A DNA stretch of 64,000 nucleotides from Aestuariivirga litoralis (GTDB lineage Bacteria; Pseudomonadota; Alphaproteobacteria; Rhizobiales; Aestuariivirgaceae), in the NCBI RefSeq assembly GCF_015714715.1, contig NZ_WAHS01000002.1, positions 558,001 through 622,000 on the forward strand, written 5' to 3'. Below are positions 55,068-64,000 of this stretch, piece after piece. A program made the position numbers and the translations under genes. The notes below the pieces were generated by a model. That model saw nothing but the letters and a program-made list of their open reading frames with translations, had not been told where the DNA came from and ran no database searches. Position 1 is the stretch's first letter, and each line of letters begins with the position of its first letter.

Positions 55068-55129
55068 GCCGCGAGGGGTTACCGGAAAGCCCATTGCAAT
55101 AGCAAGCCTGCCAAAGCATCTTGGACGGG

Positions 55130-56257
55130 ATGACAAGTCCAAAAGCAACGCTCGCCAATTGGCGCACGGCGCCGTTCAGTCAATGGGCCTTTGGCCATGT
55201 GGATGAACTTATTCCCGTGGCCACCATCGCCGCAGCGCAGCCTGCAGAACTTCCACTTGGCGCAAGCTTGAACACCGCCGCGATTGCGTCTTTCGACGAA
55301 ATACTCGCAGAAACTGAAACCGATGGCTTCATGGTGTTGCAAGGCGGCAAAATCATCCATGAATCCTACCGTCACGGCGATGCGAAGACACGCCACATCC
55401 TGTTTTCAGTCAGCAAGCCAGTCACCGGAATCCTCGCCGGCATCCTCGTCGGGCAAGGCAAGCTCGACCCTGAAGCCCTTGTCACGCGCTATGTGCCCGA
55501 AGTCAAAAACTCAGCCTATGGCACAGCCACAGTGCGCCATGTGTTGGACATGACCGTCGGCGTTTCATTTGGCGAAGACTATTTCGACACCAAGGGCGCC
55601 TTCGCCCACTACCGCGATGCCATGCTGTGGAATCCACCCAATCCGGATTTCGGCGGCCAAGGCCTGCACGCCTTTCTCGCCACGTTGCCACCCAATGGAA
55701 GCCCGCATGGCGAAGCCTTCCACTACGTTTCACCGAACTGCGATCTTCTCGGCTGGATTGTCGAACGCGCCGGCGCAGCACCCATCGCGCAGTTGCTCTC
55801 CGCGCTGCTATGGAAACCCATGGGCGCCGCCCACGATGCCTATATCACCGTTGATGCCCAGGGCGCATCGCGCACCGCTGGCGGCATGTGCATGACCTTG
55901 GCTGACATGGCCCGCTTCGGTGAACTGATCCGTCTGAACGGCAAGGCTCAAGGCCAGCAGATCGTGCCGGAAAGCTGGATTGCCGACATCTGGCACAAGG
56001 GCGATCCCGTCGCCTGGCAGAAAGGCGACATGACGGGCCTGTTCCCCCAAGGCCGCTACCGCTCGCAATGGTATGTCTCGGATGAAAAGCGAACAGCCCT
56101 TTGTGCCATCGGCATCCATGGCCAGTGGATTTATATCGACCCGAACGCCGAACTGGTTATCGCCAAACATTCATCCCAGCAAACCCCCGAAGACACGCGC
56201 CTCGAATTGCTGAATCTCACTTTGTTTGAGGCGATCGCCGCCAGCCTGAAATCCTGA
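55130..56257 (+). CDS. Class-C beta-lactamase-related serine hydrolase
   Basis: About 375 residues without a signal peptide. The SxxK motif is SVSKP (serine at about residue 93), the tyrosine motif lies in FHYVSPNCDLLG, and TAGGMCMTLADMARFGELI is typical of the 6-aminohexanoate-dimer-hydrolase (NylB-like) and esterase group rather than true AmpC. The late IGIHGQWIYIDPNAELVIAK completes the domain. The lack of an export signal argues for a cytoplasmic esterase or amidase. The ATG at 55130 was preferred to a TTG at 55121. Confidence 0.9.
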   Translation: MTSPKATLANWRTAPFSQWAFGHVDELIPVATIAAAQPAELPLGASLNTAAIASFDEILAETETDGFMVLQGGKIIHESYRHGDAKTRHILFSVSKPVTGILAGILVGQGKLDPEALVTRYVPEVKNSAYGTATVRHVLDMTVGVSFGEDYFDTKGAFAHYRDAMLWNPPNPDFGGQGLHAFLATLPPNGSPHGEAFHYVSPNCDLLGWIVERAGAAPIAQLLSALLWKPMGAAHDAYITVDAQGASRTAGGMCMTLADMARFGELIRLNGKAQGQQIVPESWIADIWHKGDPVAWQKGDMTGLFPQGRYRSQWYVSDEKRTALCAIGIHGQWIYIDPNAELVIAKHSSQQTPEDTRLELLNLTLFEAIAASLKS

Positions 56258-56267
56258 GCAACAAAAC

Positions 56268-56342
56268 TGGAGCGGGCGGTGGGAATCGAACCCACGACAT
56301 TCTGCTTGGGAAGCAGATGTTCTACCACTGAACTACGCCCGC
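56268..56342 (-). tRNA. tRNA-Gly (CCC)
   Basis: 75 bases including encoded CCA. The acceptor GCGGGCG pairs with CGCCCGC; the anticodon loop TTCCCAA gives anticodon CCC; GTGGGTTCGATTCCCAC forms the T-arm and TTCAGTGGTAGAA the D-arm, as usual for tRNA-Gly. Confidence 0.97.
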
Positions 56343-56665: not shown

Positions 56666-57559
56666 GTGAATACCAAATTGTCGATCCGGCCCAGAGATTC
56701 AGCGGAATTTCCCAATTGGGATTTTCCAACACTCGACATTGAGTTCGATGCTGAATCGAAAAGTTTTTGGATGTATTACAAGGCCGACACGCCGCCGTGC
56801 TACACGCTGCAGACGATCAACGACATCGTCGATGTGCGCGAGTCGCTTCGCGCTCTGTTTCGCGATCTGGGGCCAAAAAGGTTTCCTGTGCGCTATTTTG
56901 TTATGGCGTCCAAGCGCGACGGCATTTTCAACCTGGGTGGGGATCTCGCCACCTTCGCAGAATCGCTCCGCAAGAATGATCGCTCCGCCTTCCGCCGTTA
57001 TGGTCACGCGGCCATCGACGGCCTCTATGGCCTCTTGCAGGGATTTGACCTGCCGATCGTCACATTGGCTTTGATTCAAGGCGACGCCTTGGGCGGCGGC
57101 CTCGAAGCCGCCCTTGCCGAAGACTTTCTGGTCGCTGAACGCCGCGCAAAGATGGGTGTGCCCGAAGTCGCATTCAACACTTTTCCAGGCATGGGTGCCG
57201 CCAGTACGATGACCCGCCGGATGGGCGCAGCCTGGGCAGAAGAAGTCATGACCTCAGGCAAGATTTTTTCTGCGGGCGACCTTCATGCTCAAGGCCTGAT
57301 TGATGTTTTGGCGGAGAATGGCGAAGGCCGCGCCCGCCTGCTGAAATGGATTGAGGGCGGTGAAAAGCGCTTCTCTGACTTGCGGGCGGTGGCCCAAAAC
57401 CGGCGCAACACAATGCCGATCAGCTACGAGGAGCTGATTGCAGTCAATGATGAATGGGGCGAATGCTGCTACATGGTTGAGCCGACGGATGTCCGGCACA
57501 TGGAACGGCTGGTTGCGGCACAAAAACGCAAAACCGGCACGGCCGGCAGGGCGCAATGA
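56666..57559 (+). CDS. RpfF-like crotonase-family protein, candidate DSF-type fatty-acid signal synthase
   Basis: 297 residues of the enoyl-CoA hydratase/isomerase fold. FNLGGDLATFAESLRKND forms the oxyanion-hole segment, QGDALGGGLEAALAEDFLVA carries E147, and RRAKMGVPEVAFNTFPGMG carries E167. The two glutamates are 20 residues apart, exactly as E141 and E161 of RpfF, which turns 3-hydroxyacyl-ACP into cis-2-unsaturated DSF signals. The N-terminal 60 residues (FWMYYKADTPPCYT) also fit RpfF rather than a catabolic hydratase. Start GTG has AAGAGGG eight bases upstream. The stop overlaps the GGDEF-EAL gene (ATGA), so signal synthesis and cyclic-di-GMP turnover are coupled. Absolute proof of product needs chemistry. 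Confidence 0.85.
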   Translation: MNTKLSIRPRDSAEFPNWDFPTLDIEFDAESKSFWMYYKADTPPCYTLQTINDIVDVRESLRALFRDLGPKRFPVRYFVMASKRDGIFNLGGDLATFAESLRKNDRSAFRRYGHAAIDGLYGLLQGFDLPIVTLALIQGDALGGGLEAALAEDFLVAERRAKMGVPEVAFNTFPGMGAASTMTRRMGAAWAEEVMTSGKIFSAGDLHAQGLIDVLAENGEGRARLLKWIEGGEKRFSDLRAVAQNRRNTMPISYEELIAVNDEWGECCYMVEPTDVRHMERLVAAQKRKTGTAGRAQ

Positions 57560-59886
57560 TCAGCAGGATCAAAACCAGATTGCGGCAAAGGCGGTCGGCC
57601 AAGGCCCTTCCGGCCGATACCTATGCCAATCTGGTCGGTTCTTTGTTCGGTACGATGGGGTCGTTCATTTCTGCCATGTTGGCCGGGCTGATCGGGCCAA
57701 CCGTGGCCTACATTCGCACCGGGCATTTCTTCTTCGCATATCTGGCAGCTGCCCTCTGTCTGGCGACGGCTTTTCGCGTTTATATCATGGTCGCATACAA
57801 GGCCCGTGGCGAACGTCATGAGAGAAACATCGCGCAATGGGAGTTGCTCTATGCTCTAGGCGCCATCTCGTTCATGCTGCTGATCGGCATCAATGGCGCA
57901 GCACTCATCTGGATCCATGCAGATCGGATAGCCCAGTTTTTTGGGTTGATCATTCTGCTTGGATGCATCGGTGCGATAGCAGGCCGCAATGCCGCCCGGC
58001 CTTCCATTGTGGTCGGGCAAGTCGTGGCCTTGACCTTGCCGCTATGTGTGGCCTTCTGGCGTGAAGGGGGTGGCTGGAACATTGGATTGTCGGCGTTGAT
58101 GATCCTGATCATGGTGTCCGTGATTTCAACCACCAAATTCCTGAACCGTCATTTGCTCAAGGCCATCCTGAGCAGCCGAGAAGAAAAAATTCAAAAAGAG
58201 CGGTTTGACACCGCACTGAATAACATGGCGCAGGGCCTTTGCATGTCAAATGGCACAGGCTCGCTTTCCGTTGTCAACCGGCGCTTCACTGAACTCTTTG
58301 ATATACAGCAGGATCTTGTTGGTTCTGAAACATCGGAACTGGCACAAAAAATTGTCTCGTCACTGCAAGCCGAGGAATTCGAAGGGCTCACTTTTGTTGC
58401 CGGCTTTGAGCGCTTCATCGCGCATCCCAATCCGGGTGTGTTCACCGTGGCAATGAAAGATCACATTTACGATTTCAAGTGCGAACGCATGACCGACGGG
58501 GGGCTGCTCATTGTTGCCGAGGACGTCACCGAGATGCGCATTGCCGCGCGAAAAATCGAGCATATGGCCATGTTCGATTCTCTCACGGGCCTTCCCAACC
58601 GGTTTCAATTCAGAAATCAAATGCAGGAAGCGTCCGACAGGATCGTTGAAAGCGGCGGCTTTTCCGTACTCTACATCGATCTTGATCGCTTTAAGGAGGT
58701 CAATGACACACTCGGTCATCCCATCGGCGACAAGCTTCTTGTCATGGTTGCACAACGGCTGAGAAACGCCTTGAAGCGTGCCAATGTCGTGGCCCGGTTT
58801 GGCGGCGACGAATTTGTCGTCCTGATCGATGAAGTGCTGTTCATGTCGGGGCTTGAGGTCCTCTGCAAACGAGTGATCGACACATTGAGCGCCCCTTACC
58901 GTGTGGATGAGCACATGATCATTATTGGCGCCAGCATAGGAACAGCAACCGCCCCGCATGACGGCCGCAGCGCCGACGATATCATCAAGAAAGCCGACAT
59001 GGCACTTTACCACGCCAAGGCCAGCGGCCGTGGCTGCTACTCGCATTTCACGATTTCCATGGACGAGAGGGCGCGCGAAAAACGCCAGATCGAAAACGAA
59101 TTGCGCGACGCGATCCGCAACAACGAACTGGAAGTATTTTATCAGCCAATCGTGAACAGCCGCACCGGGAAGATCAAGGCCTGCGAAGCTCTGCTGCGCT
59201 GGCACCGCGCCGATGGCACCTTTACCCAGCCCAGTGTTTTCATTCCGATTGCAGAAGAAACCGGCCAGATTGTTGAAATTGGCAATTGGGTTCTTAATCG
59301 CGCCTGCCAGGACGCGGCAGCATGGCCTGAAGACATTCGAGTCGCCGTTAATTTCTCGGCAGTTCAGTTCCATCACGGCAGGGTGGTTGAAATCGTAAAA
59401 TCCGCTTTACAGAATTCAGGACTTGCCGCGAACAGATTGGAAGTTGAAGTCACCGAAACGACTGTCATTCAGAACGCCGATGCGACGACCATCACATTCG
59501 AAGAGTTGGCGCAACTGGGCGTAAGACTCGCGTTGGATGACTTTGGCTCGGGCTATTCCAGTTTGAGTTATCTCAACCGTTTCCCGTTCCACAAAATCAA
59601 GATTGATCGCTCATTTGTGCGCGAACTCAACGACCCGAAGTCGGCGGCGGTTATTTCCGCTGTCCGTCATCTTTCTGATATTCTGGGCCTTTCGCTCGTG
59701 GTTGAAGGAGTCGAAACGAAGAACCAGCTCACCATCCTGTCAGCCGGCGGCGCTTGCGACATTCAAGGCTTCCTGTTCAGCGAGCCAAGGCCATACGCCG
59801 CGCTCAAGACAGTTTTGGCAAGCGGTTACATCAAGCCTGATGAAGAGGCGAGCGCCCTCGCTCTTCTGAATCAGAGCGTCGCCTGA
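57556..59886 (+). CDS. Membrane-anchored PAS-GGDEF-EAL protein (cyclic-di-GMP turnover)
   Basis: 776 residues. Five to six membrane helices (about 25-195) form an input module of no recognised MASE type; a PAS-like domain (about 215-325, FDTALNNMAQGLCM, VVNRRFTELFD) and then GGDEF (about 340-500) and EAL (about 510-765) follow. The cyclase site GGDEF (416-420) and substrate loop are intact, but the RxxD inhibitory site is replaced by KRAN. The phosphodiesterase motifs EALLRW (E at about 544), DDFGSGYSSLSYL, KIDRSFV and VVEGVET are intact. Both activities are therefore possible. It overlaps the RpfF-like gene and probably senses or responds to its product. Confidence 0.95.
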   Translation: MISRIKTRLRQRRSAKALPADTYANLVGSLFGTMGSFISAMLAGLIGPTVAYIRTGHFFFAYLAAALCLATAFRVYIMVAYKARGERHERNIAQWELLYALGAISFMLLIGINGAALIWIHADRIAQFFGLIILLGCIGAIAGRNAARPSIVVGQVVALTLPLCVAFWREGGGWNIGLSALMILIMVSVISTTKFLNRHLLKAILSSREEKIQKERFDTALNNMAQGLCMSNGTGSLSVVNRRFTELFDIQQDLVGSETSELAQKIVSSLQAEEFEGLTFVAGFERFIAHPNPGVFTVAMKDHIYDFKCERMTDGGLLIVAEDVTEMRIAARKIEHMAMFDSLTGLPNRFQFRNQMQEASDRIVESGGFSVLYIDLDRFKEVNDTLGHPIGDKLLVMVAQRLRNALKRANVVARFGGDEFVVLIDEVLFMSGLEVLCKRVIDTLSAPYRVDEHMIIIGASIGTATAPHDGRSADDIIKKADMALYHAKASGRGCYSHFTISMDERAREKRQIENELRDAIRNNELEVFYQPIVNSRTGKIKACEALLRWHRADGTFTQPSVFIPIAEETGQIVEIGNWVLNRACQDAAAWPEDIRVAVNFSAVQFHHGRVVEIVKSALQNSGLAANRLEVEVTETTVIQNADATTITFEELAQLGVRLALDDFGSGYSSLSYLNRFPFHKIKIDRSFVRELNDPKSAAVISAVRHLSDILGLSLVVEGVETKNQLTILSAGGACDIQGFLFSEPRPYAALKTVLASGYIKPDEEASALALLNQSVA

Positions 59887-59893
59887 TTGGAGC

Positions 59894-60598
59894 CTAGGAG
59901 GCCTGCGCAGCTTTTACCAGTTCGAACGGCACAGGCATAACCAATCTCTGTGCCTTGTACATATGAACAAGCGCGTTATGGCGGCGCATGTTGGACCGGA
60001 TGTAGTTCTCCAGACCAGCATCGCCCTCGTCCCGTGACTCTTCAATATGCCTGATGAGAAGCATGTCTTTCATGGTAGCGGCACTCAGCTCCGCACCTTC
60101 AAGCATCATGCTTTCAGCCCGCGAGAGGCCAATTTTCCGCGCAAGAAATGCATAGGCGGTACCATGCGGCGTGGGAAGGAAAACAGCCGGCGCCTCCGCT
60201 GCAATCATGGAACACGATAAGGCAAATTCGAGGTCGGCACCCGCAATGGGGCCCCTAGCCCAGGCCACGGTAATTGTGGGAGAATTGATAATCAAATTCG
60301 CGCAGGTGTGAATCAGCTCCGAAAAGCCACTGGATCCCTGTCGCGCATTGGACAAATCAGAGTGATGAGCAAAATCGAAAACCAGGAATTTGGAATGCTC
60401 GTCCAACGCCTCTTCAAGTGCATCAGCGAATTCACGAATATTTTCCACCTCAAACCCGCTGGTATACTTCCTCACGATGACCGTCGACAGATGATCGAGC
60501 TTGCGGATATTGGGGTTTTGGTTGAGCGGGCTGAGAACTGCGCCACCATAGCCCTCAATGCCATTGACCTCGTTTAACGCCTCATTGAACGCTTTCAC
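59894..60598 (-). CDS. Crotonase-like protein lacking the second catalytic glutamate
   Basis: 234 residues, related to the RpfF-like protein in the same locus. The helix-cap region WARGPIAGADLEFALSCSMIAAE aligns with QGDALGGGLEAALAEDFLVAE and keeps the first glutamate (E124), but the position 20 residues on is P144 (LPTPHG) where the other protein has E167. The N-terminal part (VIVRKYTSGFEVENIREFA, KFLVFDFAHHSDLSN) retains the fold. It probably cannot do RpfF chemistry and may be a regulator, binding protein or altered enzyme. It converges on the GGDEF-EAL gene with seven bases between the stops; a perfect CtrA box is 36 bases before the start. Confidence 0.8.
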   Translation of the reverse strand: MKAFNEALNEVNGIEGYGGAVLSPLNQNPNIRKLDHLSTVIVRKYTSGFEVENIREFADALEEALDEHSKFLVFDFAHHSDLSNARQGSSGFSELIHTCANLIINSPTITVAWARGPIAGADLEFALSCSMIAAEAPAVFLPTPHGTAYAFLARKIGLSRAESMMLEGAELSAATMKDMLLIRHIEESRDEGDAGLENYIRSNMRRHNALVHMYKAQRLVMPVPFELVKAAQAS

Positions 60599-61870: not shown

Positions 61871-64000
61871 TTGACCGACAGGGGCAGTCCATTGGTATTC
61901 TCAATCGCTAATTTCGGGCGCAGGACAGTTGCGAAGTATTTTCGACGGGAAGGGTCGAGTTCTTCTGCAAACATTTCACCGTCTTCGATTCAGCTGCCTG
62001 TTGCTCCAGCTCTGCCTGATGTTTCAATCATCATACCCGTGCATGGCCAAATTTCCTTCACGCTGAAATGTTTAAAGTCCATCGGCGAATCCAGGCCGAA
62101 CAGCTCATATGAAGTGATTGTAATCGATGACGCGTCCGATGCAGGCGATCTCGCAATTCTGCGCCAGGTAAACGGCATCCGGCTGATCGAAAACACAAGC
62201 AATCTGGGATTTCTCCGATCTTGCAATAAAGCCGCAAGCAAGGCGCGCGGGAAGTATTTCCATTTTCTGAATAACGACACTGAGGTTTTTCCAGGAACGA
62301 TAGATCGGCTGGTTGAACTCGCAGCTGCGCATCCGGATGTTGGTCTTGTCGGTTCAAAATTCATCTTTCCCGATGGGAAGCTGCAAGAAGCAGGTGGCAT
62401 AGTTTGGCGTGACGCTTCCGCCTGGAATTATGGGCGTGGAGAAAATCCCAATTTGCCGCGGTTCAATTATGTCCGCGAAGTCGACTATATTTCGGGCGCT
62501 TCAATCCTTGTGCCTCGTAAAGTCTGGAAAGCGCTAAAGGGCTTCGACGAATATTATTCTCCCGCTTATTATGAAGACACCGACTTTGCCTTTCGGGTGA
62601 GACAACATGGCATGCGCGTCCTGTATCAGCCGCGTTCTGTTGTCATGCATCACGAAGGAGTGTCCAACGGCAAAAAACTTTCGCAAGGCGTTAAGTCCTA
62701 TCAGGTCGACAATCATAAAAAGTTTCTCAGTCGTTGGGCCGAGGATTTGCAAAAGAATCACTTTCCAGTTGCTGAACATCTGCTGCGTGCGTGCGATCAC
62801 GCGATGCACAAGCCGATTGTTTTGATTATCGACCACTATTTACCCGAGCCAGACCGTGATGCGGGGTCTCGCGCAATACTCGCTTTAGTCCAGTCATTGG
62901 TGGACCTTGGTTGCATCGTCAAATTCTGGCCGCAGAACGGGTATTACACGCCCGGCTATCACGACATCCTGGAAAGCATCGGTGTCGAGGTGTTGCAGGT
63001 TGACACGCTGGCCAGCCAGCTCGCAACTCTTGGCAATATAGGATCGGCCGGCGCTCTTGGACTTTGGCTCAAGAAAAGCGGTGCCGATATCAATGCCGTT
63101 TTCTTGTCGCGTCCCCATATTGCCGCCGAACTTTTGCCGGCCCTTCAAAAGCACGCCAGGGCCAAGATTGCTTACTATGGTCACGATTTGCATTTCTTGC
63201 GCTTACAGCGGGAAGCAAAAGCGATGAACGCACCGGAAATTTTGGGTGAAGCCGCAAAGTGGGAAAAAATGGAAAGGCATGCCTGGTCGGCTTCCGATGT
63301 CGTACTTTATCCTTCTGACGAGGAGGTAAACACTGTGAAAGAGCTGTCGCCACGGACCGACGTGCGCCGCCTACAGCTCTATGCCTTCAGTGATTTCATA
63401 CACCGCACCAAGCAGCCTGACGGATCAACCTTGCTTTTTGTGGCGGGCTTTGGCCACCCTCCTAACATCGATGCTGCGATCTGGTTTGTTTCTGAAATCT
63501 TCCCACATGTGAAGAAACTGCGGCCTGGTATTCGCCTGGTGATCGCTGGTTCCAATCCAAGAGACAGCGTGAAAGCGCTTGCCGCCCCTGACATAGAAGT
63601 CACGGGAACCCTGAGTGCTGAGGAACTGGTAAGGCGCTATGCAATTGCAAAACTCGCTGTAGTGCCCCTGCGCATTGGGGCGGGTGTAAAGCTCAAAGTG
63701 GTTGAAGCCATGCAAATGGGAGTGCCACTGGTCACGACGTCGGTTGGCGCTCAAGGCCTGCCCGGTTTTATGGATTTTGCTGCGGTCAAGGATCAGCCGC
63801 AGCAATTCGCCAAAGAGATATTGCGGCTGTTAGACAACCCCCGCGCGGCGCTGGCTCTATCCAAAAAGCAGAGCGCCTATGTGGAAAAAATGTTCTCTTA
63901 TGCAAGCCTGCGTGCTGATTTGCGGGTGTTGCTGAAGGATCTTGGCTGCCCGGCATTGCCTGGCGATCAAATGGATGGCGCTGAAGCGGCTTCTCGCAAG
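61871..64000 (+). CDS. Two-module glycosyltransferase (GT2 + GT4-type), cut by window edge
   Basis: The frame is open from 61847 to the right edge, about 710 residues visible. The first module is a GT2 fold: VSIIIPVHGQISFTLKCL, EVIVIDDASDAGDL, NNDTEV (the metal-binding DxD-type site), DYISGASILVPRKVW and YYEDTDFAFRVRQHG. From about residue 315 a second module begins (IVLIIDHYLPEPDRDAGSRA) and ends with a GT4-like donor site, RIGAGVKLKVVEAMQMGVPL. No ATG precedes the GT2 core; a TTG at 61871 with AAGGTG upstream is the best start, but 5' truncation is possible since the gene follows decayed sequence. It should build surface polysaccharide. Confidence 0.85.
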   Translation, partial: MTDRGSPLVFSIANFGRRTVAKYFRREGSSSSANISPSSIQLPVAPALPDVSIIIPVHGQISFTLKCLKSIGESRPNSSYEVIVIDDASDAGDLAILRQVNGIRLIENTSNLGFLRSCNKAASKARGKYFHFLNNDTEVFPGTIDRLVELAAAHPDVGLVGSKFIFPDGKLQEAGGIVWRDASAWNYGRGENPNLPRFNYVREVDYISGASILVPRKVWKALKGFDEYYSPAYYEDTDFAFRVRQHGMRVLYQPRSVVMHHEGVSNGKKLSQGVKSYQVDNHKKFLSRWAEDLQKNHFPVAEHLLRACDHAMHKPIVLIIDHYLPEPDRDAGSRAILALVQSLVDLGCIVKFWPQNGYYTPGYHDILESIGVEVLQVDTLASQLATLGNIGSAGALGLWLKKSGADINAVFLSRPHIAAELLPALQKHARAKIAYYGHDLHFLRLQREAKAMNAPEILGEAAKWEKMERHAWSASDVVLYPSDEEVNTVKELSPRTDVRRLQLYAFSDFIHRTKQPDGSTLLFVAGFGHPPNIDAAIWFVSEIFPHVKKLRPGIRLVIAGSNPRDSVKALAAPDIEVTGTLSAEELVRRYAIAKLAVVPLRIGAGVKLKVVEAMQMGVPLVTTSVGAQGLPGFMDFAAVKDQPQQFAKEILRLLDNPRAALALSKKQSAYVEKMFSYASLRADLRVLLKDLGCPALPGDQMDGAEAASRK

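Follow-up and report, generated by a model that had tools for sequence, protein, structure and literature searches.

RpfF, the synthase of diffusible signal factor (DSF), is described as dehydrating 3-hydroxyacyl-acyl carrier protein (ACP) and then hydrolysing the thioester (PMC6361424, PMC4504480); acyl-ACP also serves it as a source of ordinary free fatty acids (PMC4504480). DSF is connected to cyclic di-GMP (c-di-GMP) by two core routes, RpfC/RpfG and RpfR, according to reviews of 2015 and 2026; in a review of 2022 RpfR is assigned to Beta- and Gammaproteobacteria. RpfR binds RpfF through its FI domain, which inhibits the thioesterase activity of the synthase (PMC6361424). The window analysed here is a stretch of 64,000 nucleotides from Aestuariivirga litoralis (contig NZ_WAHS01000002.1, positions 558,001 to 622,000). 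It holds a crotonase assigned to the RpfF family whose gene is, judging by its sequence, translationally coupled to that of a membrane-PAS-GGDEF-EAL protein, and this pairing is conserved across families and gene orientations. For Pseudomonas DspI, a crotonase like the window enzyme, there is a genetic link to a cis-2 fatty acid (PMC4504480).

The crotonase gene (56666..57559, forward strand, GTG start, 297 residues) was defined by its open reading frame and identified by profile and alignment. In the alignment E147 and E167 line up with E141 and E161 of Xanthomonas RpfF, the numbering of which corresponds to chain numbering minus 16, an offset derived in this analysis. The earlier note was thus right that both RpfF glutamates are present with their 20-residue spacing, but its use of this spacing as an RpfF mark failed. 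The same columns hold both glutamates in all 12 catabolic hydratases aligned, so that the spacing carries no weight, and the glutamates are described as common to enoyl-CoA hydratases in PMC9864630. The same source yields the residues of the RpfF-type pocket, G85, L136, G137, G138, M170, W258 and L276. All seven are kept in the window crotonase, and W258 and M170 are missing from each of the 12 catabolic rows. Among crotonases it is RpfF that the enzyme most resembles in sequence and fold, by sequence and structure comparison and by tree; its closest solved structures are 5fus and 6dgn. A branch valued at 100, obtained with a quick method and to be read with its length and the small catabolic sample in mind, separates it from the 12 catabolic rows; it falls outside these sampled hydratases, whereas a place inside catabolic enoyl-CoA hydratases was what the earlier note had named as a refutation. 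It groups with synthases neighbouring RpfC/RpfG-type and RpfR-type partners. On these grounds we assign the window crotonase to the RpfF family, as a putative DSF-type synthase.

The stop codon of this gene overlaps the start codon of the next, the crotonase TGA sharing an ATGA (57556..57559, forward strand) with the following ATG, as the earlier note had read it; the overlap is also kept in the closest homologous locus, L065. The second gene (57556..59886, forward strand, ATG start) encodes 776 residues, a putative receptor and c-di-GMP enzyme. Its N-terminal multi-helix membrane domain (57556..58215), here called GE_N, contains the motif GRNAARP and shows about six hydrophobic segments within residues 28-197 by hydropathy, which bears out the membrane input domain proposed before. 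No Pfam entry matched GE_N at E <=0.01; the best value, with named membrane sensor domains such as MASE included, was 0.049. Pfam placed a PAS_7 domain at residues 221-330 (58216..58545), a GGDEF domain at residues 338-493 (58567..59034) and an EAL domain at residues 514-744 (59095..59787), all on the same strand. The GGDEF motif and the EAL catalytic positions, which we take to be E, N, E, E, D, D, K, E and Q, are intact, and the description of a PAS-GGDEF-EAL protein with both active sites therefore stands. In the paired set, including one partner at a contig end, the EAL catalytic residues are kept in 18 of 18 proteins and those of GGDEF in 17 of 18, so that both c-di-GMP synthesis and hydrolysis are possible outputs.

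With RpfF/RpfR of Burkholderia and Cronobacter the window pair shares an RpfF-type crotonase adjoining a PAS-GGDEF-EAL protein. RpfR has a soluble N-terminus, whereas the window partner carries the membrane domain and PAS_7 there instead; PAS_7, GGDEF and EAL were the sole domains that Pfam found in it, and the FI domain was not seen. The full-length RpfR model PRK10060 gave the partner 367 bits against a cut-off of 782 and covered just residues 319-753. The PAS profiles of the two proteins do not match (hhalign probability 7), and DSF binding through an RpfR-type PAS was rejected at the sequence level. With Xanthomonas RpfF and RpfC/RpfG the window shares an RpfF-type synthase tied to c-di-GMP turnover, but its partner has neither REC nor kinase. 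The possibility that GE_N was borrowed from RpfC was also rejected, the profile comparison giving an hhalign probability of 1.2 and an HMM score of -1.4.

Conservation of the pairing was assessed in the order Hyphomicrobiales, where 50 of 377 genomes carry the crotonase at E <=1e-40; all 50 neighbourhoods were classified. The crotonase adjoins a GGDEF-EAL protein with GE_N in 16 of them, and in one more (G936) the two genes lie at the ends of two contigs. In 25 the crotonase has, within about 7 kb, both a REC-GGDEF-EAL regulator (split over two frames in G1098) and a kinase that matches the RpfC-like one of L078. Two genomes (G872 and G924, loci L302 and L305) hold an L078-type kinase and a second, REC-bearing kinase near the crotonase; in L302 the regulator beside the RpfC-like kinase has REC, HisKA and HATPase by Pfam in place of GGDEF-EAL. 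In G971 a GGDEF-EAL protein is truncated where the contig ends. The adjacent pairs occur in tandem with the synthase first (G000, G606, G785, G1090), in tandem with the receptor first (G803, G871, G898, G923, G942) and convergently (G049, G687, G864, G888, G853, G859, G1093). At an assumed chance rate of 5% the probability of at least 16 pairs in 50 genomes is 1.5e-9, a figure that gives scale only as the genomes are related and not independent. The pairing is far commoner than chance, and the lack of conserved pairing that the earlier note had named as a refutation was not what we found. In G205 crotonase and receptor lie about 209 kb apart, yet each clusters with paired proteins on its own tree.

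Trees gave L065 and G606 as the nearest relatives of the window pair. The closest pair is that of L065, on contig JAJYCZ010000041.1 of a metagenome-assembled genome, with 79% identity in the crotonase and 57% in GE_N. Among the first 40 GE_N loci, 11 of the 12 scoring at least 137 bits adjoin an RpfF-like crotonase, the twelfth (L228) stopping at a contig end, and none of the 28 below 137 bits does. The later, lower-scoring loci G785 and G1090 are also paired, which weakens the GE_N score alone as a marker of paired proteins. On the receptor tree the paired label needs four changes rather than one, against a mean of 15 after shuffling. That the paired synthases form one clade was rejected (p 0.029) in a tree of 70 of 91 rows, from which 10 long or divergent rows (including the paired G785 and G1090) had been dropped and 11 near-copies thinned. 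With two f39 rows added, both from loci without an adjacent partner, the single clade was no longer rejected (p 0.295). The paired synthases may thus share one origin.

A third gene may belong to the module. ECH3 (59894..60598, reverse strand, 234 residues), a degenerate crotonase by profile and alignment, is convergent with the GGDEF-EAL gene and lies 7 bp past its stop. It scores 58 bits on the general crotonase model PRK08788 (cut-off 177), and its closest solved chain is RpfF, at 34 bits. The equivalent of E161 is absent in four of five aligned ECH3 members; the fifth, G606, is ambiguous, with G in that column and a glutamate one residue to each side. The equivalent of E141 is retained in four of the five and is D in G606. 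ECH3 is probably without catalysis, as these residues suggest. The layout of synthase, partner and ECH3 is repeated in L237, L350 and L351.

We consider it reasonably probable that these genes make up a compact module for DSF-type signalling, which would work like RpfF/RpfR with an unrelated membrane input domain. By analogy with RpfF the synthase would dehydrate 3-hydroxyacyl-ACP and release a cis-2-unsaturated fatty acid. This lipophilic acid would enter the membrane and be sensed by GE_N, or by the PAS domain, of the coupled protein, which would change the ratio in which this protein makes and degrades c-di-GMP; as for RpfR, hydrolysis is the likeliest direction. GE_N is the likelier sensor, or the surface holding the synthase, since it is common to the paired partners and unlike the RpfC input or the RpfR PAS. 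Synthase and partner may touch, with the receptor restraining the synthase as the RpfC REC and the RpfR FI domain do. Most speculatively, ECH3 might tune the synthase or bind its product; one guess is that it joins synthase oligomers or binds the acid. Several observations weigh against such a module. The NCBIfam RpfF model NF053515 gives the window crotonase 173 bits, and its cut-off of 550 is not reached; just 180-188 bits are reached on it by five synthases that adjoin a GGDEF-EAL protein of the RpfR type, so we regard the model as narrow and do not take it as family-defining. The divergent synthases of G785 and G1090, although paired, carry D in place of E141 and I in place of M170. In five of the 50 genomes neither partner type lies near the crotonase, and GE_N is common without this enzyme, 110 of the 377 genomes carrying GE_N and 16 the adjacent pair. 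Finally, since GE_N does not resemble the RpfC input, nor the PAS that of RpfR, the profile comparisons lend no sequence support to DSF binding by the window partner.

In another explanation of the pair, the crotonase could be an RpfF-fold fatty-acid-modifying enzyme or thioesterase whose product is no signal, coupled to a partner that senses the lipid state of the membrane. The release of ordinary free fatty acids from acyl-ACP by RpfF, as stated in PMC4504480, would fit this, as would a partner that carries a membrane domain but no known DSF-binding domain. We regard it as unlikely in view of the RpfF-type pocket, the placement among synthases neighbouring RpfC/RpfG-type and RpfR-type partners, and the recurrent linkage of the whole crotonase family with c-di-GMP proteins. 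Alternatively, the partner could be a c-di-GMP-responsive gate that binds the crotonase and sets signal output, the signal being read elsewhere. The binding and inhibition of RpfF by the RpfR FI domain (PMC6361424) offers a precedent and translational coupling favours a complex, but the partner has no visible FI domain, just PAS_7, GGDEF and EAL, and we rate this explanation as rather improbable. An ordinary catabolic enoyl-CoA hydratase with an incidental GGDEF-EAL neighbour would share the catalytic glutamates and their spacing, common to all 12 catabolic enzymes, and would agree with PRK08788 being the best NCBIfam model above its own cut-off. The tree, the pocket residues and the sequence and fold comparisons set the crotonase apart from catabolic enzymes, and its adjacency in 16 of 50 genomes (P 1.5e-9 at the assumed 5%, for scale only among related genomes) argues against coincidence, which makes this explanation very improbable. 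We retain the DSF-type signalling module as the preferred reading.

Loci outside the paired set point to a second arrangement. Among the 80 matches listed, mostly but not solely from Alphaproteobacteria, the crotonase adjoins a hybrid kinase and a REC-GGDEF-EAL regulator in 49 and a kinase alone in 13; in three, from Microvirga, the operon lies on the other side of the crotonase, and one is L065. The remaining 14 have no partner within 600 bp, five of them with less than 2 kb of right flank and one (L129) with a kinase 0.8 kb away. Domain scans gave HisKA-HATPase-REC-Hpt in the three kinases scanned and REC-PAS-GGDEF-EAL in the two regulators scanned. A profile of the kinase input domain (A9) matches all seven other RpfF-linked kinases tried, at 115-271 bits, one of which adjoins a REC-HD-GYP-type protein. 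In L181 (4100-6832) two successive stretches of a kinase, residues 6-178 and 189-372, match the input-domain profile; the synthase beside this kinase scores above the cut-off of the NCBIfam RpfF model. Judged by domains and gene order, these loci (L066-L144, L184-L326) represent a gene cluster widespread in Alphaproteobacteria, in which the RpfF-like crotonase is accompanied by a hybrid kinase resembling RpfC and by a REC-PAS-GGDEF-EAL regulator. It shares the crotonase family and the GGDEF-EAL output with the window, but its signal would presumably pass through a phosphorelay, whereas the window pair has no kinase. The earlier note had seen no RpfC/RpfG. The RpfC-type input domain (A9) was not found in the window's own genome, an empty result that alone shows little, and the window partner has no RpfC-type input domain, kinase or REC-HD-GYP features, HD-GYP genes elsewhere in the genome not having been searched. 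Neither alphaproteobacterial layout was found described in the open-access literature, which is weak evidence of absence as subscription papers and preprints lay outside the search.

The module is likely to have spread by transfer. In 36 other genomes of the genus no crotonase match surpassed E 9.8e-19, which is where general hydratases lie, and related synthase/receptor pairs sit on large plasmids. A plasmid search returned 14 records with the crotonase, of which 10 were examined, the other four all being from Burkholderia. Plasmids of Bosea sp. RAC05 and Bosea sp. ANAM02 repeat the window layout of crotonase and receptor followed by a convergent, degenerate crotonase; that of RAC05 (L350 2226-4505) also encodes a second GE_N and GGDEF protein, without an EAL match, 1.5 kb upstream of the crotonase. 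Crotonase and receptor are convergent in Methylobacterium sp. NMS14P, M. radiotolerans (two records), M. oryzae and Sphingomonas parapaucimobilis, the last with a weaker GE_N score of 138 bits. On the megaplasmid of Methylorubrum (Methylobacterium) extorquens AM1 (L353 5860-8702) an RpfF-like crotonase is convergent with a 630-residue GGDEF-EAL frame without GE_N; neither frame appears in the PLSDB gene table. The Methylibium petroleiphilum record has no such partner annotated near the crotonase. In the Burkholderia cenocepacia control the crotonase and a GGDEF-EAL frame of 746 residues converge, as they should in RpfF/RpfR, whereas the window genes are in tandem and overlap.

Just left of the module (window 55121-56342) lie a serine hydrolase of the beta-lactamase fold family and tRNA-Gly(ccc). 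Their counterparts are close together in G028 of the same genus, the module being absent from genus relatives; an insertion was considered lightly. Promoter scans gave chance level, and terminator-like sites fell mostly within genes. To the right (61871-64000, continuing to L344 11060) the DNA has a lower GC (0.49-0.54) and encodes a protein with a pair of glycosyltransferase domains, a methyltransferase, a further glycosyltransferase and an exporter of the ABC-HlyD type. Beside the closest pair, L065 13769-17629 holds genes for HlyD, glycosyltransferase 2 and TackOD1; they resemble an exopolysaccharide cluster and may be an output of c-di-GMP.

The circuit that the earlier note had proposed would couple DSF to c-di-GMP at the membrane and differ from RpfC/RpfG and RpfR. 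The placement outside the catabolic hydratases sampled, the conserved pairing and the failure to find an RpfC-type input domain in the window's genome speak for it; the spacing evidence was not diagnostic, and in most other alphaproteobacterial loci examined the crotonase sits by an RpfC-like kinase. Such a circuit stands as the best reading, as a prediction, on better grounds than glutamate spacing and in a broader form than first proposed. More tentatively, and with somewhat less than even confidence, we suggest a further, partly plasmid-borne DSF/c-di-GMP architecture in Alphaproteobacteria, in which an RpfF-family synthase would be joined by a membrane-embedded PAS-GGDEF-EAL receptor that reads the acid directly in the bilayer, with no phosphorelay and with a degenerate crotonase paralogue (ECH3) as a regulatory subunit. 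The window locus and its relatives suggest two further alphaproteobacterial layouts, one with a kinase-free membrane GGDEF-EAL partner and one with an RpfC-like kinase and a REC-PAS-GGDEF-EAL regulator. As both are present in named organisms, the use of DSF-type signals by Alphaproteobacteria is directly testable.
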